Of a stretch of DNA of 20,693 nucleotides, positions 3,898 through 19,687 are shown piece by piece (the first letter of the stretch is position 1; every line of letters starts with the position of its first letter). Position numbers and translations under genes: made by a program. The stretch is from Candidatus Neoflavobacterium equi (GTDB lineage: Bacteria > Bacteroidota > Bacteroidia > Flavobacteriales > Flavobacteriaceae), in contig JAGHSS010000087.1 in NCBI GenBank assembly GCA_018065745.1, positions 1 to 20,693 of the forward strand, read 5' to 3'. The notes beneath the pieces were generated by a model, which did no database searches, was not told the DNA's origin, and was given only the letters and a program-made list of their open reading frames with translations.

Positions 3898-4725
3898 ATG
3901 AACCTACAAAAATTAGTTGTTTCAAGTCTTGTGCTTCTTCCGCTTTTGATTGGGTGTAATACTGGCGAAAACAAAAATGTTGACATTCCTGGATTTCCAC
4001 CAAAAACCACAACTCAAGAGCAGGTAGCCGTTGAAGATACTGAGCCGATATCAAATTTTGACTTTTATCCTACCTCTACAACTGGTGTTGTAATTCACAG
4101 AAATACGTATGCCTATTCTTATAATGAGGACCATGAATTGTCAGAGTGGGTAGCCTATGAATTGGATTCAGAAGACACCAAGTACCACAAGTATGAACGT
4201 CCGTTTTTTGAGCAAGACAACAAAGTAGCAACCAAATCAGCTCATTGGAGAAATTACAAAAAGTCAGGATATGACAAAGGGCATTTGCTTCCTGCTGGAG
4301 ATAGAAGGCGTTCATTTGACGCTTATAAAGAGACTTTTTACACCTCTAATGTTGCGCCTCAGCGCCATGATTTTAACTCAGGAATCATCAATCGTTTGGA
4401 GGAAAAAACCCGTTATTGGGCAGGTAAATACGCTGGATTGTATGTCATTACAGGGTGTGTTTTAGAAAAAGGACTGCCAACAATTGGAGATGAGCAGGTT
4501 TCTGTACCCAATTATTTTTACAAAATTTTGATGACCAAAGACCAAAAGAAAATGATAGCATTTTTATTGCCTCATCAAGAGTCTAATCAGCCGTTGTACA
4601 CCTTTGTGACCAGCGTTTCCAAGTTGGAATCCATGACCGGAATTGACTTTTTTGCTGCATTGCCAGACGCCAAAGAACAGCGCATGGAGCAATCAAAAGA
4701 TTACAAAGATTGGAGTTTCAATTAA
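3898..4725 (+). CDS. DNA/RNA non-specific endonuclease, predicted lipoprotein
   Basis: A 275-aa nuclease of the NUC1/EndoG/Serratia nuclease family (beta-beta-alpha metal finger), which cuts DNA and RNA using one divalent metal. The start at 3898 is chosen over an in-frame ATG at 3739 because it gives a lipoprotein signal peptide with lipobox L-I-G-C (Cys20), and because the upstream extension overlaps the divergent gene. Catalytic His129 lies in DKGH, a variant of the usual DRGH. The metal-binding Asn160 lies 31 residues later in FYTSNVAPQRHDFN, the same spacing as in EndoG. The lipobox implies anchoring in the outer or inner membrane facing outward, which suits nucleic-acid scavenging or degradation of extracellular DNA (inference). 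It is a single-gene unit, with a structured repeat rather than a terminator downstream. Confidence 0.9.
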   Translation: MNLQKLVVSSLVLLPLLIGCNTGENKNVDIPGFPPKTTTQEQVAVEDTEPISNFDFYPTSTTGVVIHRNTYAYSYNEDHELSEWVAYELDSEDTKYHKYERPFFEQDNKVATKSAHWRNYKKSGYDKGHLLPAGDRRRSFDAYKETFYTSNVAPQRHDFNSGIINRLEEKTRYWAGKYAGLYVITGCVLEKGLPTIGDEQVSVPNYFYKILMTKDQKKMIAFLLPHQESNQPLYTFVTSVSKLESMTGIDFFAALPDAKEQRMEQSKDYKDWSFN

Positions 4726-4734
4726 TTTTTTGAT

Positions 4735-4843
4735 GGCGTTCCTTTTAAATTCGCTGCGCTCATGAAAAGGGCGGGTCTTTTGCTGTATCTTTTCTCCTGT
4801 CAGGGACAGGAGAAAAGGATGCCGCTTCAGCCCCTAACGCGGG
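4735..4843 (+). repeat. Structured intergenic repeat, copy A (three stem-loops)
   Basis: This fills almost all of the 124-bp gap between the convergent nuclease and rodA genes. Conserved blocks shared with copy B (13466-13578, opposite strand) are GGCGTTCC (4735-4742), TTCGCTGCGCTCA (4750-4762), GGATGCCGCT (4817-4826) and CTAACGCGG (4834-4842). Hairpin 1 has arms CCTTTT (4741-4746) and AAAAGG (4765-4770) around the conserved TTCGCTGCGCTCA loop. Hairpin 2 has perfect 13-bp arms, CTTTTCTCCTGTC (4789-4801) and GACAGGAGAAAAG (4805-4817), with loop AGG. A weak third stem pairs CCGC (4822-4825) with GCGG (4839-4842). No T-tract follows hairpin 2 on either strand, so it is not a standard terminator. 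The region is clearly more GC-rich than its surroundings. Confidence 0.88.
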
Positions 4844-4849
4844 TATTTA

Positions 4850-6106
4850 CTACCACTCATTCACCTTGTTTGCATCCAATTTCAAAAAGATAAACAACAA
4901 TATGGTAAACGCCCATAAACTGGATCCTCCATAAGAGAAAAAGGGCAGGGGCACCCCAATTGTTGGGAATAGTTTGATCAGCATGGTGATGTTCACAAAG
5001 AAGTGTATGAACAGATATGTCGCTACACAGTAGCCGTAAATTCTACTAAATTTTGTCTTTTGGTTTTCAGCCAGATAAATTATCCTCAAAAACAGTATTA
5101 CAAAAAGAGTGATTACCGTTGCAGATCCTGCAAATCCCCATTCTTCTCCCACTGTTGTAAAGATATAATCTGTGTGTTGCTCAGGTACAAATCCACCCTT
5201 AGTCTGTGTTCCTTCCAGGTATCCTTTACCCAGCCATCCACCAGAACCAATTGCAATCATGGATTGATTTAAGTTGTATCCTTCTTTTTGCATGTCAATG
5301 TCTTCCCCAATCAACACGTTAATTCTGTCTTTTTGATGGGGTTCCAACACATTTTCATACACATAGTCAACAGAGAATATAAACCCGGTAATAGCGACAA
5401 AAATGACCGCATAAACCACGGGATTTCTCTTGATGCTTCTGTTAAAGAAATAATGGATCAACATCACGATAAGTGTAAATATGGTCAGGAATACCGGTTC
5501 CACAATCAGTGAAAGGATAAAGAGCGCGATGGATATAAAACCCGTCCACAAGTACCAACCCGGTAAACCTTCTCTAAACAAAACAAAGACAATCGCGATG
5601 AAGATTAAGGCACTTCCCGCATCCGGTTGCATCATGATCAGCAAGATTGGAAAACCTAAGATTGCCAAAGCGATGATTTGACTTCTAAAATTTGACAAGT
5701 TCATCTGGCTGTCACTTACCACCTTAGCTAGAAACAAGGCCGTTGTTGTTTTGACAAATTCAGAAGGCTGCATACCAAAGCCTCCAAACTGATACCAGTT
5801 TGTTTGCCCTTTGATGGTTTTTCCCAGTACAAAAAGTCCCATCAAGGACAGGATGCCTAGGCCATAAAATATTACAGCATACTTTTCAAATATTTTTGCA
5901 TCAACAGAAAGTAGAATAAAAATCAAAGGTATGGTCAATATTATAAAAAGAATCTGTCTTCCATACGTTTGACTGATGTCAAAAAAAGACGTTTCCTCAA
6001 CAGGCAGAGAGGCTGAATATATATTCATCCATCCCATCACCACCAGACACATATAAATCAATATGGTAATCCAGTCAATATTGCTGATAACACTTTGGTT
6101 TTTCAT
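4850..6106 (-). CDS. rodA: Rod shape-determining protein RodA (SEDS peptidoglycan glycosyltransferase)
   Basis: A polytopic inner-membrane enzyme of 418 aa that polymerises lipid II glycan strands with PBP2 during cell elongation. SEDS signatures are present: QPSEFVK (113-119), QPDAGSA (160-166), EQHTDYIFTTVGEEWGF (309-325) with Asp313 at the position of the conserved SEDS aspartate, and GVPLPFFSYGGSS (384-396). About ten hydrophobic segments are visible. It is the last gene of the shape cluster: its ATG lies 2 bp after the mrdA stop codon, so it is almost certainly translated from the same mRNA. The pairing with mrdA next door matches the known RodA-PBP2 complex. FtsW is the alternative SEDS member, but the mre/mrdA context and the sequence favour RodA. 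Confidence 0.96.
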   Translation of the reverse strand: MKNQSVISNIDWITILIYMCLVVMGWMNIYSASLPVEETSFFDISQTYGRQILFIILTIPLIFILLSVDAKIFEKYAVIFYGLGILSLMGLFVLGKTIKGQTNWYQFGGFGMQPSEFVKTTTALFLAKVVSDSQMNLSNFRSQIIALAILGFPILLIMMQPDAGSALIFIAIVFVLFREGLPGWYLWTGFISIALFILSLIVEPVFLTIFTLIVMLIHYFFNRSIKRNPVVYAVIFVAITGFIFSVDYVYENVLEPHQKDRINVLIGEDIDMQKEGYNLNQSMIAIGSGGWLGKGYLEGTQTKGGFVPEQHTDYIFTTVGEEWGFAGSATVITLFVILFLRIIYLAENQKTKFSRIYGYCVATYLFIHFFVNITMLIKLFPTIGVPLPFFSYGGSSLWAFTILLFIFLKLDANKVNEW

Positions 6107-6108
6107 TC

Positions 6109-7968
6109 TTATCTATTAATTGTAAAAGGTTGACCACTATACGGCTTTGCGTACTCTTGTTCCAAGGTGGCATTTAAGATTCTATTCTCTAAATCTTGTC
6201 TGTATATGGTATCTTTTCTGATGTATTTTTCAATCATTAATGTGGCAATTGGAGCACCATATCTAGTTCCCCAGTATCCGTTTTCAACAAACACCGCCAA
6301 GGCAATTTTTGGGTTGTCTGCCGGAGCAAACGCCACAAACACAGAGTGGTCTGTTAGCTGTACCCTTTTCCCTCCAATTTTCATAAAGTTTTCTGCAGTT
6401 CCCGTTTTACCAGCAATTTCAATTCCCGGTGTTTTCGCACCTGCAGCGGTACCAATATTGTATACATCTTTTAGCCCCGCAATCATTGGTTCAAAGTGTT
6501 GTTTGTCAATGGTTGTTTGGTGTTTTGTTGTAAACTTAGTATCTATGGTATGATCTTTAATTTTCTTGATCATGTGAGGTGTGTAGTAATGCCCTCTATT
6601 GGCTACTGCAGCCATCATATTTGCTAATTGTATTGGCGTCATTAAGACCTCACCTTGTCCAATAGAATTGGAAATAATGGTTGTAGATCTCCATCCACCA
6701 TTTGGATACCAACGGTCATAATATTCAGAGTTAGGGATGTGTCCCTTTCTTCCCGGTGGTAAATCATACCCCATAAAGTTTCCTAAACCAAAACTTTTAA
6801 GGTGGTCACTCCAGGTGTTTACTCCTTTTTTAGGTCCGTATTTGTCAATAATTAATTTAAACGTATTGGCAAAATAGGTATTACAAGATTTGTATATGGC
6901 TCTGTGCAATTGTATTGGACCGTTGTCGTGACATTTCATAAATGCCCCACGACCGTAGTAAAATCCGTGTCCACAGTAAAACGTACTGTTTTGGTTGATT
7001 ACACCTTCTTGCAAACCAATCAATCCCGTCAAGATTTTGAACGGTGAACCAGGCGGGTATTCTGCTAACAATCCTCTGTCATAAAGTGGTTTTGCTATGG
7101 TGTCATAATACAATTTAGTGTAGTTTTTTGAACGTTCTCTTCCCACCAACATGGCAGGATCATAAGACGGAGCAGTTACTAACGCCAGAATTTCACCTGT
7201 TGCAGGTTCAAGCGCTACAATACCCCCTCTTTTGTTTTTCATCAACTCTTCACCATATTTTTGAAGTTCAATGTCCAAGGTCAACGTGATGTCACTTCCC
7301 TGAACAGCGATGGTATCATAAATACCTTCTTTATATGAACCAATATCTTTGTTGAAGCGGTCTCTTTGGCGGTATTTCACCCCTTTAATACCTCTTAAAA
7401 TTTCTTCATAGGTTTGTTCCACCCCTTGCATACCAATTAAATCCCCACTTTTGTAGTATGGATTTTTGGTAATGATGTTTTCATTTACTTGGGTGATGTA
7501 TCCAAAAACGTTAGCGCCCACGTTCACTTGGTAGTCACGCAGGGATCTTTTTTGGATGTAGAAGCCTTCAAATTTTCTAATTTTTTCTTGAAAGGCTGCA
7601 TATTCAGCTTTGTTTAATTGGGGTAAGAATACGGAAGGTAGTCTTGGAGAATACACCTTTGCTTTCTCAATTTTCTTGATGTAATCCTCTTTAGAGATTG
7701 CCAAGAGTTTGCAGAATTCAAGGGTGTCAATATTTTTTAAATCACGAGGAACCACCATGATGTCATAAGACGGTTGGTTGGCAACTAATAATTTGTTGTT
7801 TCTATCATATATGTATCCACGTTCCGGATAATCATAAACAATTTTAATGGCATTGTTTTCTGATTTTTTAATGTAAGAGTCATCTAAAATTTGCAAATAG
7901 AATAGCTTTCCTAAAATTACTAAGGCAGCAATAACAATTAGTGCAGGTAGGAATAACTTTCTTATCAT
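6109..7968 (-). CDS. mrdA: Penicillin-binding protein 2 (elongation-specific peptidoglycan transpeptidase)
   Basis: A class B PBP of 619 aa that cross-links nascent peptidoglycan in the lateral wall and is the target of beta-lactams such as mecillinam. An N-terminal membrane anchor (about 5-25) is followed by a PBP dimer/pedestal domain (about 40-215, including ERGYIYDRNNKLLVAN) and the transpeptidase domain (about 245-585). The active-site motifs are all present: S308-P-F-K311 (nucleophile Ser308), S361-C-N363 and K521-T-G523. Cys332 and Cys346 flank a short Tyr/Gly-rich insertion just after the active-site helix and could form a disulphide (inference). The start ATG overlaps the mreD stop codon in an ATGA arrangement, and rodA follows 2 bp downstream, so the three genes are probably translationally coupled. 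Confidence 0.96.
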   Translation of the reverse strand: MIRKLFLPALIVIAALVILGKLFYLQILDDSYIKKSENNAIKIVYDYPERGYIYDRNNKLLVANQPSYDIMVVPRDLKNIDTLEFCKLLAISKEDYIKKIEKAKVYSPRLPSVFLPQLNKAEYAAFQEKIRKFEGFYIQKRSLRDYQVNVGANVFGYITQVNENIITKNPYYKSGDLIGMQGVEQTYEEILRGIKGVKYRQRDRFNKDIGSYKEGIYDTIAVQGSDITLTLDIELQKYGEELMKNKRGGIVALEPATGEILALVTAPSYDPAMLVGRERSKNYTKLYYDTIAKPLYDRGLLAEYPPGSPFKILTGLIGLQEGVINQNSTFYCGHGFYYGRGAFMKCHDNGPIQLHRAIYKSCNTYFANTFKLIIDKYGPKKGVNTWSDHLKSFGLGNFMGYDLPPGRKGHIPNSEYYDRWYPNGGWRSTTIISNSIGQGEVLMTPIQLANMMAAVANRGHYYTPHMIKKIKDHTIDTKFTTKHQTTIDKQHFEPMIAGLKDVYNIGTAAGAKTPGIEIAGKTGTAENFMKIGGKRVQLTDHSVFVAFAPADNPKIALAVFVENGYWGTRYGAPIATLMIEKYIRKDTIYRQDLENRILNATLEQEYAKPYSGQPFTINR

Positions 7969-8468
7969 TTGTTAGGTTTGATTAGATAGATGATAATTAT
8001 ACTTAGAATCAGGGTAAAAATGGTTGAGCAAATTGTTCTCAATAAAATTTCAAAGATGAATTCAAATTTGAATATTTCCAGGAAGAACAAGGTAATGTGA
8101 TGGATCAAAATGGCGATTAGAATAAACGAAAAACGTTCTGTTGAAAGTTTGTCAGCAATTCTCACCGTTTGATATTCATAACTCAAACCAAAAGAAAATT
8201 TAAACAAGGTAGGTCTGACAAACGCGAGTACAAGACAAGCTGTTGTGTGTACACCACCAGAATTTAAAAACATATCCATAAATATCCCCAACGCAAAACT
8301 TGCTAAAAGCAGGCTGTTTTTATTTCCATTTACAGGAAACAAAAGAATGAAAAGGATGTATGGATAGGGATTGATGTATCCCAAAAAATTAATATTATTA
8401 AAAATAAGGATTTGTATTGCCATTAGCAATACAAATCGTATACTATTTTGAATAAGGTTGTTATTCAT
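7965..8468 (-). CDS. mreD: Rod shape-determining protein MreD
   Basis: An integral inner-membrane protein of 167 aa with about five hydrophobic segments, the usual size for MreD. It is the membrane partner of MreC and MreB in the elongasome. Sequence conservation is low in this family, so the call rests on size, topology and its place between mreC and mrdA. The 5' end overlaps the mreC stop region by 8 bp (ATG at 8466-8468), and the 3' end overlaps the mrdA start by 4 bp. The charged loop around 95-110 and the C-terminal IKPNK tail are consistent with cytoplasmic loops. Confidence 0.9.
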   Translation of the reverse strand: MNNNLIQNSIRFVLLMAIQILIFNNINFLGYINPYPYILFILLFPVNGNKNSLLLASFALGIFMDMFLNSGGVHTTACLVLAFVRPTLFKFSFGLSYEYQTVRIADKLSTERFSFILIAILIHHITLFFLEIFKFEFIFEILLRTICSTIFTLILSIIIIYLIKPNK

Positions 8469-9288
8469 TTGGTTTCGTTTCAGCTTCTAATTGTTCAATC
8501 TCTTTTTTGTGTGTATTTTCAATAATGTATATGGTACCTAAATTGGTCATATCATTGAACAAACGCACATCAATAGTGTAATAGTTTGTTTCCTTATCCA
8601 CATATACTTTATCAATTTTACCAATTGGAATATTTTCTGGGAAAATTTCAGAAAGTCCACCGGTTACAATGGTATCTCCTTTTCTTACACTTGCTAATCT
8701 TGGGACGTCAATCAATTGGGCATAACCCACATTTTTAGCGTTCCACGTTAGTGTTCCAAAGTGGTTTTCATTTTTGATTTTGGCGTTGATTTGAGATTTA
8801 GTATTTAAAATACTTTGGATTGTAGCATAGTTTGTTGACGTTTTTTCAATAATTCCAACAATACCAAGGCTGTTAACCACTCCCATATCTGGTTTTACAC
8901 GCAGTGCATTACCCGCATTGATCGTAATGTAGTTTTGAGGTACACTAAAAGAGTTATTGATCACTTTAGCTTGGGTGACCAAATATGTTGTATCAATAAA
9001 TTTAAGGGCACTGTGATCTGTGATTACAGTGTCCTTTTTATTGTAAAGTATTCTTTTAAGATATGCATTTTCTAGAGCAAGATTGTCATTTTGCTCTTTG
9101 AGGTTGAAATATTCTTTGACATTACTAATTTGTTGATAGACCCCACCCGTTAAAAAGTTAGCTGAAGTTACCACTTTGCTTCTATGATACGAATGTGACT
9201 GAACAGTTAAAGTCAAAGCTATGCACAAAAGCAGCAAAAACAGCAAACGATTGCTGTTTTTTATTAAAAAATTTAGTATTTGCTGCAT
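8461..9288 (-). CDS. mreC: Rod shape-determining protein MreC
   Basis: A 275-aa bitopic protein that links cytoplasmic MreB to the periplasmic wall synthases and activates PBP2/RodA. A short N-terminal cytoplasmic part precedes one membrane helix (about 13-29, LLFLLLLCIALTLTV). Next come a periplasmic coiled coil (about 55-85, NVKEYFNLKEQNDNLALENA and onward) and the two-barrel MreC domain (about 105-255), with typical motifs such as NSLGIVGIIEKTS and VRKGDTIVTGGLSEIFP. The C-terminal tail (HKKEIEQLEAETKPNE) is charged. It follows mreB by 10 bp and overlaps mreD by 8 bp. Confidence 0.95.
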   Translation of the reverse strand: MQQILNFLIKNSNRLLFLLLLCIALTLTVQSHSYHRSKVVTSANFLTGGVYQQISNVKEYFNLKEQNDNLALENAYLKRILYNKKDTVITDHSALKFIDTTYLVTQAKVINNSFSVPQNYITINAGNALRVKPDMGVVNSLGIVGIIEKTSTNYATIQSILNTKSQINAKIKNENHFGTLTWNAKNVGYAQLIDVPRLASVRKGDTIVTGGLSEIFPENIPIGKIDKVYVDKETNYYTIDVRLFNDMTNLGTIYIIENTHKKEIEQLEAETKPNE

Positions 9289-9298
9289 ATGCTAAGTT

Positions 9299-10327
9299 CT
9301 ATTTGATCAAGATACTTTTAAATTTGTTTATGTGCTTTAACGCCATACCAGTCCCACGAACAACTGCTCTTAATGGGTCTTCAGCGATATAAACAGGAAG
9401 GTCTGTTTTTTGAGAAATTCTCTTGTCCAAACCTCTTAACATAGATCCTCCACCTGCAAGGTAGATTCCTGTGTTGTAAATATCTGCTGCTAATTCTGGA
9501 GGTGTTTGAGATAAAGTCTCCATAACAGCATCTTCAATACGTTGGATTGATTTATCCAAAGCTTTAGCAATTTCTCTATAAGAAACATCTACTTGTTTTG
9601 GTTTTCCAGTCAACAAGTCACGTCCTTGAACTGACATATCATCTGGTGGTAATTCCAAATCTTCTGTAGCTGCTCCTACTTGAATTTTAATATTTTCTGC
9701 CGTGCGTTCCCCCACAAATAAATTGTGTTGAGTTCTCATGTAGTAAATAATATCGTTTGTGAAAACGTCACCTGCAATTTTCACAGATTTATCACATACA
9801 ATACCACCCAAAGCAATGACAGCGATTTCAGTAGTACCACCACCTATGTCAACAATCATATTTCCTTTTGGTTGCATGATGTCTACACCAATTCCAATTG
9901 CTGCTGCCATTGGTTCATGGATAAGATAAACCTCTTTACCGTTTACACGTTCACAAGATTCTTTAACCGCGCGCATTTCTACTTCAGTAATACCAGAAGG
10001 AATACATACTACCATGCGCAAAGCCGGAGTAAACATTCTTTTCTTTAATGCGGGAATACTTTTAATAAACATATTAATCATTTTCTCTGAAGCATCGAAA
10101 TCAGCGATAACTCCATCCTTTAACGGACGAATGGTCTTAATATTTTCATGTGTTTTCCCCTGCATATTATTAGCCTCAGCACCAACTGCGATGATTTTGC
10201 CAGAGATTCTATCTCTAGCAACAATTGACGGGCTGTCAATGACAACCTTGTCGTTATGTATTATAAGTGTATTCGCTGTACCAAGGTCAATTGCTACGTC
10301 CTCAGTCATGAAATCAAAAAATCCCAT
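9299..10327 (-). CDS. mreB: Rod shape-determining protein MreB (bacterial actin)
   Basis: A 342-aa actin-like ATPase that forms membrane-bound filaments guiding lateral wall synthesis. Actin-fold motifs are visible: phosphate-1 DLGTANT (14-20), the IHEPMAAAIGIGVD segment, phosphate-2 DIGGGTTEIAVIALGG and the adenosine motif LAGGGSML near the C-terminus. The N-terminal MGFFDFMTED begins with a hydrophobic, helix-like stretch suited to membrane contact. Length is normal for the family. It lies 57 bp downstream of the purH stop codon. A TAnnTTTG-like box in that gap (10371-10378) could give the mre genes a promoter of their own. Confidence 0.97.
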   Translation of the reverse strand: MGFFDFMTEDVAIDLGTANTLIIHNDKVVIDSPSIVARDRISGKIIAVGAEANNMQGKTHENIKTIRPLKDGVIADFDASEKMINMFIKSIPALKKRMFTPALRMVVCIPSGITEVEMRAVKESCERVNGKEVYLIHEPMAAAIGIGVDIMQPKGNMIVDIGGGTTEIAVIALGGIVCDKSVKIAGDVFTNDIIYYMRTQHNLFVGERTAENIKIQVGAATEDLELPPDDMSVQGRDLLTGKPKQVDVSYREIAKALDKSIQRIEDAVMETLSQTPPELAADIYNTGIYLAGGGSMLRGLDKRISQKTDLPVYIAEDPLRAVVRGTGMALKHINKFKSILIK

Positions 10328-10370
10328 ATTCAGAAATGGTTATTAATATATTATAAAAAAAATAAGCCTA

Positions 10371-10378
10371 CAAAAATA
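10371..10378 (-). promoter_or_regulatory. Possible internal -7 box upstream of mreB
   Basis: On the minus strand this reads TATTTTTG, an exact fit to the Bacteroidota -7 consensus TAnnTTTG, 43 bp upstream of the mreB ATG in the purH-mreB gap. No TTG is found at the expected -33 distance, which falls inside the purH 3' end, and the gap is AT-rich. It may therefore be weak or fortuitous. Confidence 0.3.
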
Positions 10379-10384
10379 ATAAAA

Positions 10385-11911
10385 TTAATGTTTGAAATGA
10401 CGAATACCGGTAAGAACCATTGCTAAATTATTTTCGTTGCAATAATTGATACTCAATTCATCTTTTATAGAACCTCCAGGCTGTATAACAGCTGTTATTC
10501 CTGCATTTTTAGCCAACTCCACACAATCAGGGAACGGAAAGAATGCATCACTAGCCATTACCGCACCATTTAAATCAAATCCAAATGAATTTGCTTTTTC
10601 AACCGCATGTCTCAAGGCGTCTACTCTGGATGTTTGTCCAGTTCCAGATGCTATTAGCTGGTTGTTTTTTGCAAAAACAATGGTGTTTGACTTGGTGTGT
10701 TTACCAATTTTAGAAGCAAACAACATGTCCTTAACCTCTTGTTCTGTAGGTTGTTTCTGTGTTGCAACTTTTAAAATGTCAGCACTGTCAGTAACATTAT
10801 CTTTATCTTGAACCAAATAACCGTTTAAACAAGTTCTCACTTGGATGTCTGATACATTGGTTTGTTTTTGAATTAAAATAATTCTGTTTTTCTTTTCTTG
10901 AAGTTTAACCAAAGATTCATCAGTATATCCTGGAGCGATGATTATTTCACAGAAAAGTTTGTTTATTTCTTCTGCTGCATCCAATTCAATTGGAGCGTTT
11001 GAAAAAAGAACACCACCAAATGCTGATGTTGGATCTGCTGCCAAAGCTGCTAAATAAGCTTCTTTAACTGTAGGTCTCGTTGCAAGTCCACAGGCATTGT
11101 TGTGTTTCAATATTGCAAAGGTAGGATCTTCTCCTTTGAATTCTGACATTAAATTTACACCGGCATCAACATCTAATAGATTGTTGTAAGATAATTCTTT
11201 TCCGTGTAATTTGTTAAACATCATATCCAAATTTCCGAAAAATATTCCTTTTTGATGTGGATTTTCACCATATCTTAACGTTTGCGATTCTTCAACGCTA
11301 ATTTTGAAGACGTCGTCTTCTGTGTTGAAGTAGTTGAAAATAGCGGTGTCATAGTGAGAAGAAACGTGGAAAGCTTTGGTTGCTAAAAGTCTTCTTTCTT
11401 GTAATGACGTACTGCCGTTATTCGCATTATAAAAATTCAAAAACGTTTCATATTCGTTTACAGATGCAACGATTACAGTGTCTTTGAAATTTTTTGCAGC
11501 TGCTCTGATCAAAGAGATTCCACCAATATCAATTTTTTCAATGATGTCAGCTTCTGAAGCTCCAGAGGCAACTGTTTTTTCAAATGGATACAAATCAACG
11601 ATAACTAAGTCAATTTGAGGAATGTTAAATTCTTCCATCTGAGCAATATCACCTTCGTGATCTTGTCTGTTCAAAATCCCTCCAAAAACTTTTGGGTGTA
11701 ATGTTTTTACACGTCCGCCAAGGATTGAAGGATATGAAGTAACGTCTTCAACAGGTACTACATTGATTCCAAGATCTCTAATAAACGTTTCTGTTCCACC
11801 AGTTGAGTAAATTGTTACATTTTGCTCGTTTAATTTTTGGACAATTGGTTCAAGTCCGGTTTTATCAAATACAGATATTAAAGCTGCTTTGATTTGTTTG
11901 TTTGTGTTCAT
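10385..11911 (-). CDS. purH: Bifunctional AICAR transformylase / IMP cyclohydrolase
   Basis: Catalyses the last two steps of de novo purine synthesis: formylation of AICAR with 10-formyl-THF, then ring closure to IMP. The chosen start gives 508 aa, a typical length. An in-frame ATG at 11965 would add 18 atypical residues (MIITITIATFANSN...) and would lie at or upstream of the promoter at 11935-11965, so it is rejected. The N-terminal MGS-like cyclohydrolase domain (1 to about 145) carries SVFDKTGL, STGGT, GGRVKTLHPKVFGGIL and VDLYPFEKTV. The AICARFT domain follows with RYGENPHQ (213-220), catalytic K269-H270 in KHNNACG, QPGGSIKDE, and the C-terminal GIRHFKH. It is the first gene of a run through mreB, mreC, mreD, mrdA and rodA with no terminator between them. 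Confidence 0.96.
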   Translation of the reverse strand: MNTNKQIKAALISVFDKTGLEPIVQKLNEQNVTIYSTGGTETFIRDLGINVVPVEDVTSYPSILGGRVKTLHPKVFGGILNRQDHEGDIAQMEEFNIPQIDLVIVDLYPFEKTVASGASEADIIEKIDIGGISLIRAAAKNFKDTVIVASVNEYETFLNFYNANNGSTSLQERRLLATKAFHVSSHYDTAIFNYFNTEDDVFKISVEESQTLRYGENPHQKGIFFGNLDMMFNKLHGKELSYNNLLDVDAGVNLMSEFKGEDPTFAILKHNNACGLATRPTVKEAYLAALAADPTSAFGGVLFSNAPIELDAAEEINKLFCEIIIAPGYTDESLVKLQEKKNRIILIQKQTNVSDIQVRTCLNGYLVQDKDNVTDSADILKVATQKQPTEQEVKDMLFASKIGKHTKSNTIVFAKNNQLIASGTGQTSRVDALRHAVEKANSFGFDLNGAVMASDAFFPFPDCVELAKNAGITAVIQPGGSIKDELSINYCNENNLAMVLTGIRHFKH

Positions 11912-11934
11912 TGTTGTGTTGTTGTTTGAATTTG

Positions 11935-11965
11935 CAAAAGTAGCTATTGTAATGGTAATAATCAA
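11935..11965 (-). promoter_or_regulatory. Consensus flavobacterial promoter of the purH-mre-rodA cluster
   Basis: On the minus strand, TTG (11965-11963), a 20-nt spacer and TACTTTTG (11942-11935) match the Bacteroidota primary sigma-factor promoter (TTG at -33, TAnnTTTG at -7). Transcription would start near 11929-11931, leaving a leader of about 18 nt before the purH ATG at 11911. Confidence 0.72.
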
Positions 11966-12069
11966 TATATTAAGTAGGTGTTTTTTGCCAAATGTTTATT
12001 TTTTTTGACTTTTTTGGAATAAATTTTTTAAGTACTGACTTTATTAAGATTTCACCGCTGTTGAAAAGC

Positions 12070-12101
12070 TTGATGCAGGAACTTCAATTTAAATTAATTT
12101 G
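12070..12101 (+). promoter_or_regulatory. Possible promoter of the MacB/FtsX-like permease
   Basis: TTG at 12070-12072, a 21-nt spacer and TTAATTTG at 12094-12101 match the Bacteroidota pattern except for one base of the -7 box (TT instead of TA). The predicted leader to the ATG at 12181 is about 75 nt. The rest of the 269-bp purH/permease divergent region is AT-rich, with T-runs around 11991-12030 and no hairpin or other motif that I can support. Confidence 0.42.
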
Positions 12102-12180
12102 CTTTTAGATGTAACGTTATTGTATAATTTACTACTTATCATTATCTCTTGGAATGGAGGTGATAATTGTATTTACTGAT

Positions 12181-13431
12181 ATGAATTTATATATAAGACT
12201 TCTTCACGAGAGTTTGAAATTTGCGCTCAATGCACTGCGCACAAATAAGTTGCGCACCTTGTTGTCTCTTCTGGGGGTGACGGTGGGTATTTTTTCCATT
12301 ATTGCTGTTTTGGCAGCTGTGGATTCTTTGGATAAAAAAATCAAGAGTGACCTTTCTGATTTGGACAAAAACACGATTTATTTGATGAAGTACTGTTTTG
12401 GACCGTCAGAAGTTCCAGATTGGAAAATAGATCAATTCCCAAATGTTACTTATGACGAATATGAGATGATCAAGCGCACACAGGCTGGTTTGGACAAGAT
12501 TTCATTCAACGTGTTTACAAAGGCTGAAAGTTTGCGCTATGAGTCCAAGGTGGCGTCTGCAGTGAGCATTACACCATGTTCTGATCAGTTTGTTGATTTG
12601 GATGCTTTAAAAGTGGAGCAGGGGCGTTTTTTTAACGAATCAGAATCCAATGCAGGTGCTGCTGTCATTGTTTTGGGGAATAGCGTTGCTGAGACTCTTT
12701 TTGATCAGTCCAACCCTTTGGGGAAAAAAATAAGAATGTATGGCAGGAGGTTTACTGTAATTGGCGTTTTGAAAAAGGCCGGTTCAGTTTCCATTGGGTC
12801 CAACACAGATAAAAATGTATTTATACCTGTAAATTTTGTTCGTATACTTTATGGGGATAACAATAAACAATTGACACCAGCGATTGTTTTGAAGCCGTTG
12901 AAGTCCTATGATGTGGATTTGTTCAAGGCTGAACTGACTCAGAAAATCAGAGCGTTTAGAGGTTTGAAGCCTGGTGCTGAAGACAATTTCTTTGTCAATA
13001 TTTTTGCTGGTTTCATGGACATGATTGATGAAGTGGTTGGCAAATTGAACTTGATGGGGTGGGTGATTAGTGGATTCTCTTTGCTTGTTGGTGGTTTTGG
13101 AATTGCAAACATTATGTTTGTTTCTGTAAAAGAACGCACCAATTTGATTGGAATTCAGAAATCTCTTGGCGCTAAAAACAGATTCATCTTGTTTCAGTTT
13201 TTGTTTGAAGCCGTTATTCTGTCCTTGATTGGAGGGGTTGTTGGGTTGTTATTGGTGTGGTTGATGGCGTTTATTGCTACAGCAGCTTTTGATTTTGAAT
13301 TTGTACTGAGTATGAAAAATATACTTTTGGGTAGTGGAATTTCCTGTTTGATTGGGTTAATTGCTGGGGTGATTCCTGCAATATCTGCTTCAAAGCTGGA
13401 TCCTGTTGAGGCCATTAGATCTGGAATGTAG
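12181..13431 (+). CDS. MacB/FtsX-family ABC transporter permease
   Basis: A 416-aa inner-membrane permease of the type VII (MacB/LolCE/FtsX) ABC superfamily, which acts as a mechanotransmission exporter rather than a classical channel. N-terminal ALNALRTNKLRTLLSLLGVT leads into the first membrane helix (about 25-50). A periplasmic MacB_PCD domain follows (about 50-275). Three C-terminal helices close the protein, with the conserved stretch GIANIMFVSVKERTNLIGIQKSLGAK and a terminal ASKLDPVEAIRSGM. The start at 12181 is chosen because it gives the usual N-terminus. An upstream in-frame ATG at 12154 would add nine residues, but an SD-like GGAGGTGAT directly follows it. No ATPase or membrane-fusion partner is in the window, so cargo is unknown. 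Its transcript would run into repeat copy B and the terminator at 13595. Confidence 0.88.
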   Translation: MNLYIRLLHESLKFALNALRTNKLRTLLSLLGVTVGIFSIIAVLAAVDSLDKKIKSDLSDLDKNTIYLMKYCFGPSEVPDWKIDQFPNVTYDEYEMIKRTQAGLDKISFNVFTKAESLRYESKVASAVSITPCSDQFVDLDALKVEQGRFFNESESNAGAAVIVLGNSVAETLFDQSNPLGKKIRMYGRRFTVIGVLKKAGSVSIGSNTDKNVFIPVNFVRILYGDNNKQLTPAIVLKPLKSYDVDLFKAELTQKIRAFRGLKPGAEDNFFVNIFAGFMDMIDEVVGKLNLMGWVISGFSLLVGGFGIANIMFVSVKERTNLIGIQKSLGAKNRFILFQFLFEAVILSLIGGVVGLLLVWLMAFIATAAFDFEFVLSMKNILLGSGISCLIGLIAGVIPAISASKLDPVEAIRSGM

Positions 13432-13465
13432 TGGTTTGATGAACCTGTTTACATTTTGTGAATTT

Positions 13466-13578
13466 GGGCGCATGCCGCGTTAGCGGGCGCAGCGGCATCC
13501 TTTTTTTGCTCGCAAAAAAAGATATAGCGGAGCACGCGACGCCTGTTTGAGCGCAGCGAAAGTACAGGGGGAACGCCC
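13466..13578 (-). repeat. Structured intergenic repeat, copy B (three stem-loops)
   Basis: A reverse-oriented relative of copy A (4735-4843), lying in the 201-bp gap between the convergent permease and accD genes. Shared blocks, given on the minus strand, are GGCGTTCC (about 13577-13570), TTCGCTGCGCTCA (about 13560-13548), GGATGCCGCT (ending at 13491) and CTAACGCGG (13483-13475). Hairpin 1 has arms CCTGT (13542-13546) and ACAGG (13564-13568) around the conserved 17-nt loop. Hairpin 2 has arms CTTTTTTTG (13500-13508) and CAAAAAAAG (13513-13521). Hairpin 3 has arms ATGCCGC (13472-13478) and GCGGCAT (13492-13498). The ends also form an 8-bp inverted repeat, TTTGGGCG (13463-13470) and CGCCCAAA (13574-13581). 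Hairpin arms differ from those of copy A while pairing is kept. Confidence 0.88.
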
Positions 13579-13594
13579 AAAAAATATGATATAC

Positions 13595-13630
13595 AAAAAA
13601 AGGCTGCTTCATGAGAAACAGCCTTTTTTT
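13595..13630. terminator. Bidirectional intrinsic terminator of accD and the permease
   Basis: Arms AAAAAAAGGCTG (13595-13606) and CAGCCTTTTTTT (13619-13630) enclose a 12-nt loop. The structure works on both strands. On the minus strand it begins 2 bp after the accD stop codon. On the plus strand it ends the permease transcript after repeat copy B. Confidence 0.9.
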
Positions 13631-13632
13631 TG

Positions 13633-14487
13633 TTATCTAATTGGTTGATTTAAAATCAAGTCAATGTATAAGTTTATTTTTTTCTTTAACTCTTTTCTGT
13701 GAGAAATGAAGTCTAGGAAACCGTGTTCCAACAAGAATTCTGATGATTGGAATCCTTCTGGTAAATCTTTTCCTGTGGTGTCTTTTACAATTCTAGGACC
13801 TGCAAAACCAATTAAAGCACCAGGTTCTCCAATATTAATGTCACCCAACATAGCATAAGACGCAGTAGTACCACCTGTTGTAGGATCAGTACATAAAGAG
13901 ATATATGGCAATTGAGCTTCTGCTAATTTTGTCAATTTAGCTGAAGTTTTTGCTAACTGCATCAAAGAGTATGCAGCTTCCATCATACGCGCTCCACCAG
14001 ATTTAGAAATCATCACAAAAGGCAATTTGTGAGCGATTGCGTAATCAATGGCACGTGCAATTTTTTCACCAACTACAGCTCCCATAGAACCTCCAATAAA
14101 GGCGAAATCCATACAGGCGATAACGATGTCATTACCTTTTGATTTTCCAACTGCAGTAGTTACCGCATCCTTCAATTTGGTCTTTTCAGTAACTTCAACA
14201 ATACGGTCGCTGTATTTTTTGGTATCCACAAAATTTAATGGATCCTTAGACGTGATGTTTTCGTTAATTTCAGTGTACTCGTTGTTGTCAAATAAAATTT
14301 GAAAGTACTCTTTGCTACCAATGCGGACATGGAAATCGTCCTCAGGGCTAACCCATAGGTTGCGCTCCAATTCATCAGCATCCACAATTTTCCCTGTTGG
14401 TGATTTATACCACAAACCTTTGGGTGTGTCTTTTTTATCTTCTGTAGCGGTCTGAATCCCTTTTTCTGTTCTTTTAAACCAAGCCAT
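13633..14487 (-). CDS. accD: Acetyl-CoA carboxylase carboxyltransferase subunit beta, without zinc-finger cysteines
   Basis: The beta subunit of the carboxyltransferase that moves CO2 from biotin to acetyl-CoA, forming malonyl-CoA for fatty-acid synthesis; 284 aa. The crotonase-like core is complete, with [60 protein letters not shown] and GFAGPRIV. The N-terminal region aligns with the E. coli zinc-ribbon segment (LWYKSPTG ... [12 protein letters not shown]). All four expected cysteines are replaced, by about Ser29, Gly32, Ser47 and Asp50, and no other Cys pair is present there, so it probably binds no zinc at this site. It follows fbaA by 60 bp on the same strand and ends at the terminator at 13595-13630. 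The alpha subunit (accA) is not in the window. Confidence 0.95.
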
Positions 14488-18275: not shown

Positions 18276-18992
18276 ATAAAGTTAATAACGAGCCTGCAAC
18301 AGAAAAAGTACCGTAAAGAACACGGTCTTTTCATTGCTGAAGGTAGAAAAGTCATTCAAGAATTATTGGATGCGTCCTTTGATTTGCATCAATTATTTGT
18401 GACAGAATCCCTTTTTGAAGGTATTCCATCATCCAAAAGATTTGAAATCACTCCGTTAGAGCTTACAAAAATATCAGCTTTAAAGACGGCAAACAACTGT
18501 TTGGCGCTTTTTAAAATTCCATCAGATCAAAAAATTGATGCGAGTGGGTTGTTATTGGGATTAGATGACGTGCGCGATCCAGGAAATATGGGAACCATTA
18601 TGCGTTTGTGTGATTGGTATGGAATTACAGATTTGGTATGTAGTGAGGACACGGTTGATTTATACAATCCAAAAGTGGTTCAGGCAACCATGGGTTCTAT
18701 TGCGCGTGTGCGCGTGCACTATCTAAATTTGGAATCCTTTGTTCAGGATTATGAAGGACCTGTGTTTGGAACGTTTATGGATGGAGTTTCCATATATAAA
18801 GAAAAACTTCCAAATGCTGGGATCATTATCATGGGTAATGAGGCTAATGGAATATCTGATAAGATAGCTGAATTAACGACACAACGCATTGCGATACCAA
18901 GATTTGGAAGTTTGCAGCAGACAGAAAGTTTAAATGTTGCCAGTGCAACAGCTATTATTTTGTCTGAATTTATGAGGTCTCAACCTTCTTAA
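18258..18992 (+). CDS. SpoU/TrmH-family 2'-O-ribose RNA methyltransferase
   Basis: A SAM-dependent methyltransferase of the SPOUT superfamily that modifies 2'-O-ribose positions in rRNA or tRNA; 244 aa. An N-terminal substrate-binding domain (about 5-85, KKYRKEHGLFIAEGRKVIQE) precedes the knotted catalytic domain. Motif 1 is GLDDVRDPGNMGTIMR (101-116), motif 2 IIMGNEANGIS (190-200) and motif 3 IPRFGSLQQTESLNVASATA (213-232). The domain layout resembles RlmB/TsnR-like enzymes, but the target nucleotide cannot be read from sequence. The start lies 36 bp from the divergent tamL start. The stop codon overlaps that of convergent porT within TTAA at 18989-18992, and no terminator separates them. 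Confidence 0.92.
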   Translation: MVSKNQIKLITSLQQKKYRKEHGLFIAEGRKVIQELLDASFDLHQLFVTESLFEGIPSSKRFEITPLELTKISALKTANNCLALFKIPSDQKIDASGLLLGLDDVRDPGNMGTIMRLCDWYGITDLVCSEDTVDLYNPKVVQATMGSIARVRVHYLNLESFVQDYEGPVFGTFMDGVSIYKEKLPNAGIIIMGNEANGISDKIAELTTQRIAIPRFGSLQQTESLNVASATAIILSEFMRSQPS

Positions 18993-19687
18993 TGGAAGGC
19001 GAAATTTAAGAACACTCCTCTGGTGTTCATTTTGTGTATGTTTCCAGTCCACGGACTGTTTGGATCATTATCTCTGACTAATTCATCATCAATTCCAAAA
19101 ACACCGCGAATTGATGGTGAAAATTTAAAGTATTCAAAATACAAATCAATCCCCACACCAGCAACCATACTTCCAGTGGCACTTTTCATTCTGAATTTTT
19201 GAGCCGAATTATCATCTTTTGCATCTTCATTAGCGGCTAAGTTGATGCTGTGCATATATCCTCCCAAAAGGTAAGGTTTTATGTTTCCAGTTCTCTTTGC
19301 TGAATAATGCACAATGATTGGAATGTTGATGTAAGTTGATTTTACTTCTCTCAATTGATCGTATACATCTGGTACTTGGTGAAAAGTTAAGTTTCTGGTT
19401 GTAAAGCTCACTCCAGGTTCTAACCTCACGTCAAAATGGTTGGAGATTCTAACATTTCCAATCATACCGACATTAAAACCTGTGGTTGAATTTACAGTAA
19501 CATCTTTTGCATCACGTTTGTAATCCATTTTAAAATCATAAAAATTCACCCCTAGATAATATCCCCAAGAGATGGGTTTTTTATCTATGTTTTCCAGATT
19601 TATGATTGGATCTTTACCAAATATACCGCCTTGTGCATTAGCAGAAAGCGAAAGGATCATTGTTAAAAGAGCAAGTACTTTATTCAT
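18989..19687 (-). CDS. porT: PorT family outer-membrane beta-barrel protein (type IX secretion)
   Basis: A 232-aa secreted protein with a Sec signal peptide (MNKVLALLTMILSLSANAQ) and a small-barrel pattern of alternating strands (OMP_b-brl_2 type). I recognise it as the PorT/SprT component of the Bacteroidota type IX secretion system from the segments WGYYLGVNFYDFKMDYK, STGFNVGMIGNVRI, REVKSTYINIPIIVHYS, FKFSPSIRGVFGIDDEL and DNDPNSPWTGNI, and from the C-terminal TRGVFLNFAFH. PorT is needed for secretion of gliding adhesins and surface enzymes in this phylum, although its exact role is unclear. It begins 2 bp after the ubiE stop codon, so the two are an operon. Its stop codon overlaps that of the convergent methyltransferase. 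No other T9SS gene is in the window, as expected for a dispersed system. Confidence 0.9.
   Translation of the reverse strand: MNKVLALLTMILSLSANAQGGIFGKDPIINLENIDKKPISWGYYLGVNFYDFKMDYKRDAKDVTVNSTTGFNVGMIGNVRISNHFDVRLEPGVSFTTRNLTFHQVPDVYDQLREVKSTYINIPIIVHYSAKRTGNIKPYLLGGYMHSINLAANEDAKDDNSAQKFRMKSATGSMVAGVGIDLYFEYFKFSPSIRGVFGIDDELVRDNDPNSPWTGNIHKMNTRGVFLNFAFH

Follow-up and report, generated by a model that had tools for sequence, protein, structure and literature searches.

The repeats and their setting

The window analysed here is a 20,693-nucleotide stretch of DNA from Candidatus Neoflavobacterium equi (assembly GCA_018065745.1, contig JAGHSS010000087.1, positions 1 to 20,693) and carries two copies, A and B, of an intergenic repeat that matches the Rfam family Flavo-1 (RF01705). 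Copy A (4735–4840, plus strand in the orientation GGCG...CGC used for all parts described here, the folding strand of Flavo-1 being the opposite one) occupies the gap between two convergent genes, one encoding a secreted-endonuclease-like protein (end at 4725) and the other rodA (end at 4850). Copy B (13477–13578, minus strand, GGGCG...CGC) is located between convergent genes for a MacB-like permease (end at 13431) and accD (end at 13633). Gene names in the window were assigned from the translations without a family search. An initial annotation of this DNA had described two oppositely oriented repeats sharing blocks in the same order and forming hairpins 1 and 2, and on re-reading of the sequence the blocks, their order and spacing, and the hairpins were all confirmed, with copy B on the strand opposite to copy A.

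The element comprises an outer stem (P1), a 5' hairpin (hairpin 1 or P2) and a long arm (P3) that ends in a variable hairpin (hairpin 2, or the tip), and its parts are ordered T-tract, GGGCG-NN(N)-CC, hairpin 1, GG-TC, positions a1–a17 (GGGCTTTCCGCTATATC), hairpin 2 and positions b1–b24 (GGATGCCGCTTCAATCCCTAACGC). In copy A the 5' side of P1 (GCGTT, 4736–4740) pairs with AACGC at 4836–4840, an assignment based on covariation of column 5p5 with b21 and of 5p6 with b20. Hairpin 1, the loop of which contains TTCGCTGCGCTCA, spans 4742–4770. The long arm (4773–4834 overall) is made up of its 5' side a1–a17 (4773–4789), the tip (4790–4816) and its 3' side b1–b18, which together with one linker base covers 4817–4835. 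The corresponding parts of copy B, all on the minus strand, are the hairpin 1 region (13538–13571), the 5' side of P3 (a1–a17, 13521–13537, with GCG as its segment P3a), hairpin 2 (13501–13520) and a segment at 13477–13500 that includes the 3' side of P3, with CGC as the partner of P3a, followed by the 3' side of P1.

The foot of the element reads GGCG or AGGAGC and its 5' flank is rich in T. The T-tract, found at 4726–4731 (plus strand) in front of copy A, is a feature of the whole family: each of six positions is T in 65–85% of the copies in the genome of the window, referred to as G000 (101 of the 109 segmented copies), and the tract likewise precedes 111 copies from other Flavobacterium genomes. 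An intrinsic terminator was considered as the identity of the element and rejected, as T typically precedes and A follows the stem of hairpin 2 on both strands, and the T-run precedes the element at its 5' end instead of following it at the 3' end. A terminator-like hairpin with a T-run was recognised by eye at 13594–13630 (minus strand), 3' of accD, where it adjoins the 5' end of copy B and is outside the element. Elsewhere in the window, the open reading frame (ORF) at 18989–19687 (minus strand) encodes an outer-membrane-protein-like product that is by eye a candidate for the type IX secretion protein PorT.

Family membership and copy number

No named family for these repeats was known to the initial annotation. 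In a cmscan search copy A matched RF01705 at 4765–4848 (minus strand) with 44.9 bits, above the gathering score of 42 (E = 6.8e-7, inner 84 nt), and copy B matched at 13469–13545 (plus strand) with 39.8 bits, below that score (E = 1.7e-5, inner 77 nt). The RF01705 model covers the inner arm only, with 8 unpaired positions at each end, and contains neither the outer stem P1 nor the 5' hairpin. The window repeats are members of a named, functionally unexplained family, as a variant with more structure than the Rfam model, and the class to which they belong is already described to the extent that it is catalogued as an RNA motif. In the accessible part of Weinberg et al. 2010 (PMC2864571), Flavo-1 is listed for Bacteroidetes as probably an RNA ("y") and probably not cis-regulatory ("n"). 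The outer stem, the 5' hairpin and the replacement of tips described below are not mentioned in the accessible portions of the open-access literature on Flavo-1.

The two copies in the window are far from alone in their genome, a finding that would have told against the initial annotation had it come out otherwise. Together with the E values above, this number of matches places the repeats well outside anything that chance would produce. At least 116 matches to RF01705 were found in G000 (2.17 Mb, 83.6% complete, with its closest named mreC loci in Flavobacterium) among the best 150 of 424 candidates scored, and 81 of them exceed the cut-off. The weakest of these matches are near noise, given that 10 of 14 control genomes give a match at E ≤ 10 and none of the 14 gives one over the cut-off. 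In a survey of 148 genomes of the class, with the best 29 or fewer candidates scored per genome and filters stricter than in the G000 scan, a match at E ≤ 1e-4 was present in at least 61 genomes and one over the cut-off in at least 41. Nine genomes that were re-scanned contained from at least 19 to at least 109 matches each at E ≤ 1e-6 (best 150 of at least 995 candidates per genome). Flavo-1 is thus dispersed across the flavobacterial genomes examined, with copy numbers that range from the tens to above one hundred, and the high-copy, extragenic and palindromic character of repetitive extragenic palindromic (REP) sequences is present, with a minority of copies overlapping mechanically called ORFs.

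Of the 116 matches in G000, 115 had a locus and 109 of these were retained by segmentation, in several cases with a 5' boundary that is plainly misplaced. Regular expressions served imperfectly for recognising the element: one found it in 30 of 30 G000 loci and yet in just one of the two window copies, and another found no element in 20 loci (L111–L130), in the first seven of which (L111–L117) cmscan then gave four diverged ones. A covariance model (R1, 17 pairs) built from a mixed alignment (A1) in which the outer stem of the window type is misplaced was used for scanning only.

Covariation and the strand that folds

The pairing was examined in 92 distinct sequences, representing the 96 of 109 segmented G000 copies that passed filters. 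When the 1128 column pairs were ranked by mutual information with average product correction, the top 8 all fell in one helix register, namely two in P1, three in P3a and those of a4–a6 with b15–b13, and 11 of the best 20 were in this register. For 10 of the 20 register pairs, including the non-Watson-Crick pair a14/b5, mutual information was above that of all 2000 shuffles. A second set of 111 copies from seven Flavobacterium genomes mostly has a simpler 5' part (AGGAGC, without hairpin 1), and its inner-arm pairs covary as well. The CCGC/GCGG "third stem" with which the initial annotation had closed the 3' part did not turn out to be the conserved closure, which the covariation places in P1 (GCGNN/NNCGC) and P3a (a1–a3 with b16–b18). 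Its broader claim, that pairing is kept despite changed sequence, is strongly supported by this covariation in further copies, by the strand-specific wobbles and by compensated changes, all of which indicate selection on the pairing or its active maintenance.

Wobble pairs in the hairpin arms are distributed unequally between the strands. In G000, G·T/U pairs on the Flavo-1 strand outnumber those on the other strand by 42:13 (p = 1e-4; counted over 74 distinct sequences of hairpin 1 and 102 of the tip, both kinds of wobble being treated alike), and in the second set by 30:6 (p = 7e-5; 89 distinct tips from 111 copies, of which 3 fitted neither stem type). Together the two sets give 72:19 in favour of the Flavo-1 strand, with p = 2e-8 for copies whose relatedness was not removed. 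The inner arm has near-fixed pyrimidine mismatches at a7/b12 (92 of 92), a9/b10 (90 of 92) and a12/b7 (91 of 92), each of which corresponds to G•A on the Flavo-1 strand. The mismatch at a4/b15 swaps between C•T (48 of 92) and T•C (38 of 92), that is, between G•A and A•G on the Flavo-1 strand. Wobbles of the Flavo-1 strand are opposed by none of the other type at a5/b14 (12:0) and a13/b6 (41:0), whereas the unpaired position a8/b11 shows both kinds (16 and 8), which weighs against the asymmetry. The excess of G·T/U and the conserved G•A mismatches on it show the Flavo-1 strand to be the one that folds.

Gene context

Neighbouring genes were taken from mechanical ORFs, which left 4 of the 115 G000 copies without a left gene. 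The left gene points into the element in 97 of the remaining 111 (p = 2e-16 against an even split rather than the genome background), and 56 copies lie between convergent genes and 3 between divergent ones. Where the two neighbours are in tandem, the folding strand is antisense to both in 28 cases and sense to both in 9. In the other Flavobacterium genomes (113 elements, of which 105 are flanked by genes on both sides, 4 fall within an ORF and the remaining 4 were excluded) this bias is reversed, with 17:37 at tandem pairs, and 26 of the 105 elements are found between divergent genes, compared with 159 divergent gaps among the 935 of those regions.

Orientation relative to genes therefore differs between lineages, leaving no fixed transcript strand and making a constant function within mRNA unlikely, so that the candidates left are a role as DNA and an RNA transcribed from its own promoters. 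An element in the 3' untranslated region (UTR), one of the possibilities raised initially, would fit the position 3' of genes in G000 and fails in the other genomes. In addition, the available excerpt of a Flavobacterium psychrophilum transcriptome study (PMC9723704) describes Flavo-1 matches that seemed to lie indistinctly sense or antisense to transcribed regions, with many in no transcribed region at all.

Filled and empty orthologous sites

The stop codons that enclose copy A in the window are separated by 124 bp. Of 8 Flavobacterium loci compared, 7 have no element here and leave no more than 51 nt between the ends of the two flanking genes, with the stop codons counted, and the eighth locus (L117) is without the neighbour gene. 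The gene order purH, mreC, rodA is the same in all eight of these loci (L111–L118) as at 4850–11965 of the window, and a convergent endonuclease-like gene follows rodA in 7 of the 8. At another site, taken from genome G058, reading of the printed gaps revealed the element in 9 genomes, the query included, and none in 6; three genomes in which a different gene occupies the gap, and several more that match at one flank only, were left unscored. The empty counterpart in G162 has intact flanks. A CCAG/CTGG pair present in 6 of the 9 copies at one site is suggestive of vertical descent.

A diverged Flavo-1 with a CCTG/CAGG closing stem was observed in the divergent gap between purH and the MacB-like gene of four species (L112–L115), with tips that differ between L112, L113 and L114/L115. 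Copies can also persist, as this element in four named relatives illustrates. In a separate case, L238 (G160), which is orthologous to L165, has a far longer tip with an apparent additional hairpin, as if something had entered hairpin 2.

Apparent replacement of tips

Matching of flanks yielded 24 orthologous pairs from seven genomes. The closest pair, G088 and G153, shares 9 sites, with no empty one seen, in fetched regions that were centred on elements and are for that reason biased towards presence. The tip is the same or nearly the same at 7 of these sites, and at the other 2 it is another hairpin (identity 0.62 and 0.55) replaced en bloc, between left flanks that are 100% and 97% identical. 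At one of the two the stem is unchanged, and at the other the inner loops changed type along with the tip. At this second site the G153 form is the derived one, because G162, more distant by flank identity, shares the G088 type. The new tip is identical letter for letter at both G153 sites and in three copies of G058.

Two further pairs contain a compensated double change in the stem, and the species with compensated changes or tip swaps have left flanks that are 92–100% identical. Within G000, 30 of 109 copies share a tip (at most 4 mismatches) and yet combine it with four types of P3a and 27 different versions of hairpin 1; hairpin 1, P3a and hairpin 2 occur in many combinations across copies. 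From these comparisons we conclude with fair confidence that tips are probably exchanged as cassettes between copies, for which process we infer the direction, the donor and an enzyme.

Candidate mobilising proteins

The check for a RAYT-like partner proposed in the initial annotation was carried out with profiles for the Y1 transposases (PF01797), which gave hits in 112 of 148 class genomes, and for RAYT, the REP-associated tyrosine transposase (NF047646), which gave hits in 114. Neither profile had a hit in four element-bearing genomes, G000 (83.6% complete), G008, G014 and G115. None of 30 Y1 loci contained the element by regular expression, and 24 of the 30 show the IS200-like Y..NQ motif in a simple motif search. 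R1 was run on 30 RAYT loci, and the Rfam model on 20 of these as well; Flavo-1 was matched only at L191, where a sub-threshold copy (37.4 bits) is located about 200 bp from the RAYT gene. In the R1 scan of 20 larger regions, 19 of them around RAYT-profile hits and one around a Y1 gene, the nearest match was about 1.6 kb away. The RAYT survey is a sample that covered, for example, two of five profile hits in G058 and one of seven in G088. In the sampled RAYT and Y1 loci the genes are thus not flanked by copies of the element as genes of REP systems are, with L191 as a sub-threshold exception.

The 5' GT[AG]G foot of REPs is likewise absent from Flavo-1, and this does not speak against RAYT subclass 2.6, whose REPs also lack it. 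According to the part of PMC6006769 that is accessible, this subclass (group 5) is found mainly in Bacteroidetes, its genes are flanked by "atypical secondary structures", and these have copies elsewhere in the genome without the GT[AG]G foot. Proteins resembling subclass 2.6 (NHxH...YIHNNP) are present among the RAYT loci, and other palindromes adjoin the RAYT gene at L191 and at L195/L196. The loci L195 (G077) and L196 (G003) encode a Bacteroidetes-type RAYT (NHLH...YLHNNP) with short palindromes nearby (repeated CCTCCGTAACCGTTACGG) that by eye are unlike Flavo-1. At L377 (G052:C125:67900-87700) Flavo-1 copies at 6857–6929 and 13855–13960 lie about 3 and 4 kb to either side of a Y1 gene, and no other link between them was seen.

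Interpretation

The reading we favour, which may well be right and could equally be wrong, is that the repeats are a REP-like, non-autonomous dispersed DNA element that acts as a folded single strand and evolves by cassette replacement; our preference for DNA over RNA is moderate. The working form would be a single Flavo-1 strand folded as a three-way junction of P1, hairpin P2 and the long arm P3, the last of which carries the G•A internal loops and a tip of free sequence. Presence and absence at orthologous sites would reflect insertion, with T-rich intergenic sites receiving the new copies. A structure-specific DNA-binding or DNA-cutting protein might see the fold when the strand is exposed by replication or by cruciform extrusion, and conversion over very short tracts could exchange the tip, as a cassette, between copies, which would renew perfect pairing. 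More tentatively still, Flavo-1 may constitute a genome-wide exchange network in which an element-specific process, acting on single-stranded DNA (or complementary DNA) with homology under about 20 nt, overwrites the tip cassette with sequence from other copies, stem and flanks staying in place; such structure-guided short-tract conversion would be widespread in Bacteroidia and would probably have a chromosomal role. The mobile palindrome of REP type, or of the type of miniature inverted-repeat transposable elements (MITEs), proposed in the initial annotation is borne out in so far as the copies are dispersed, lie mostly outside genes and are present or absent between intact flanks, whereas its link to a RAYT was not found in the sampled loci.

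Several observations weigh against the DNA element. Tolerance of G·U and the G•A loops are expected of an RNA just as much, and at a14/b5 a near-fixed T:G (86 of 92) makes a wobble on the strand opposite to Flavo-1. The mobilising protein sought through the Y1 and RAYT profiles was not found as a partner, a composite built from the simpler element type of Flavobacterium has no match in the phage and plasmid collections searched, and a target-site duplication could not be read with confidence at the compared sites. The term extragenic is imperfect, as 22 of 115 G000 copies overlap a mechanical ORF of at least 70 aa and 4 of 109 copies elsewhere one of at least 90 aa. At both tip-swap sites the right flanks are merely 79% identical over 150 bp. 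Finally, the presence of the element at one orthologous site in 9 species suggests a host function, which a purely mobile element does not need.

The chief alternative, which we regard as rather unlikely although by no means negligible, is that Flavo-1 is a genuine RNA, either a structured small RNA or a UTR element, with many paralogous copies that after transcription would bind a protein or ligand through their fold. Its curation as an RNA motif in the accessible part of Weinberg et al. 2010 (PMC2864571) agrees with this, as do the wobble excess, the purine-rich G•A loops, a lower RNA folding energy on the Flavo-1 strand in 62 of 74 copies folded, and orthologous sites filled in several species. 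The reversal of the antisense bias between G000 and the other genomes argues the other way, and so does the indistinct sense or antisense placement of F. psychrophilum matches, many outside transcribed regions, in the excerpt of PMC9723704.

That the family has no function, being an old set of insertions whose palindromes are kept perfect by template switching in quasi-palindromes and by occasional gene conversion, seems improbable. Template switching of this kind is an established process in bacteria, and the compensated changes and tip swaps between species with nearly identical left flanks are in keeping with it. Such a process predicts neither the one-strand preference of 72:19 nor the swap of G•A to A•G at a4/b15 nor the near-fixed bases of the internal loops, which do not amount to palindromic repair. 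We consider it slightly less probable again that Flavo-1 represents the REPs of a RAYT, for example of the Bacteroidetes subclass 2.6 (group 5). The footless, unusual structures flanking genes of that subclass in the accessible part of PMC6006769, which can be compared with Flavo-1 by description and not by sequence, are consistent with such an origin, together with the abundance of RAYT hits in the class, the subclass-like proteins and the match at L191. The carriers without any RAYT or Y1 hit, the single match among 30 RAYT loci, the distance of about 1.6 kb in the larger regions, and the other palindromes that occupy the place beside the RAYT gene at L191 and L195/L196 are all contrary to it.

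A motif catalogued as an "RNA" and abundant in flavobacterial genomes may be a DNA element that works as a folded single strand. Should the replacement of tips prove real and be catalysed by an enzyme, that enzyme would be directly accessible through closely related species pairs and one tractable laboratory Flavobacterium, and caution would be called for in taking covariation in repeats of this sort to prove that they are RNA.

Comparison with known systems

Integron attC sites combine recognition through the folded form of a single strand with unpaired bases that are conserved and an end structure that varies, and Flavo-1 would be similar in these respects; its box order by eye is inverted, GTT...AAC and not AAC...GTT as in attC (RYYYAAC...GTTRRRY). 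Group IIC introns insert behind the T-runs of terminators and so share the T-run before the element, whereas Flavo-1 is too short for intron domains, has no ORF, and has its T-tract also in the copies from other Flavobacterium genomes, most of which are not situated behind gene ends. The MITEs of DDE transposons, which have sequence-conserved terminal inverted repeats and a fixed target-site duplication, are similarly non-autonomous and present or absent between intact flanks, but the outer repeats of Flavo-1 (P1) covary rather than conserve their sequence and no confident target-site duplication was seen at the compared sites. REP sequences and REPINs with their RAYT (TnpA_REP) are likewise short, mostly extragenic, high-copy, palindromic and dispersed; judged by the REP rules in the accessible part of PMC6006769, Flavo-1 differs in having no GTAG/GTGG foot, no linkage to a RAYT in the sampled loci, and a three-way junction with G•A loops and a free tip. 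The Flavo-1 RNA of Rfam shares its inner arm, strand and loop bases with the window repeats, and its model matches both copies, while the window-type copies add P1 and the 5' hairpin; copies in the present analysis are present or absent at orthologous sites and carry differing tips, and the RNA label is put in question.

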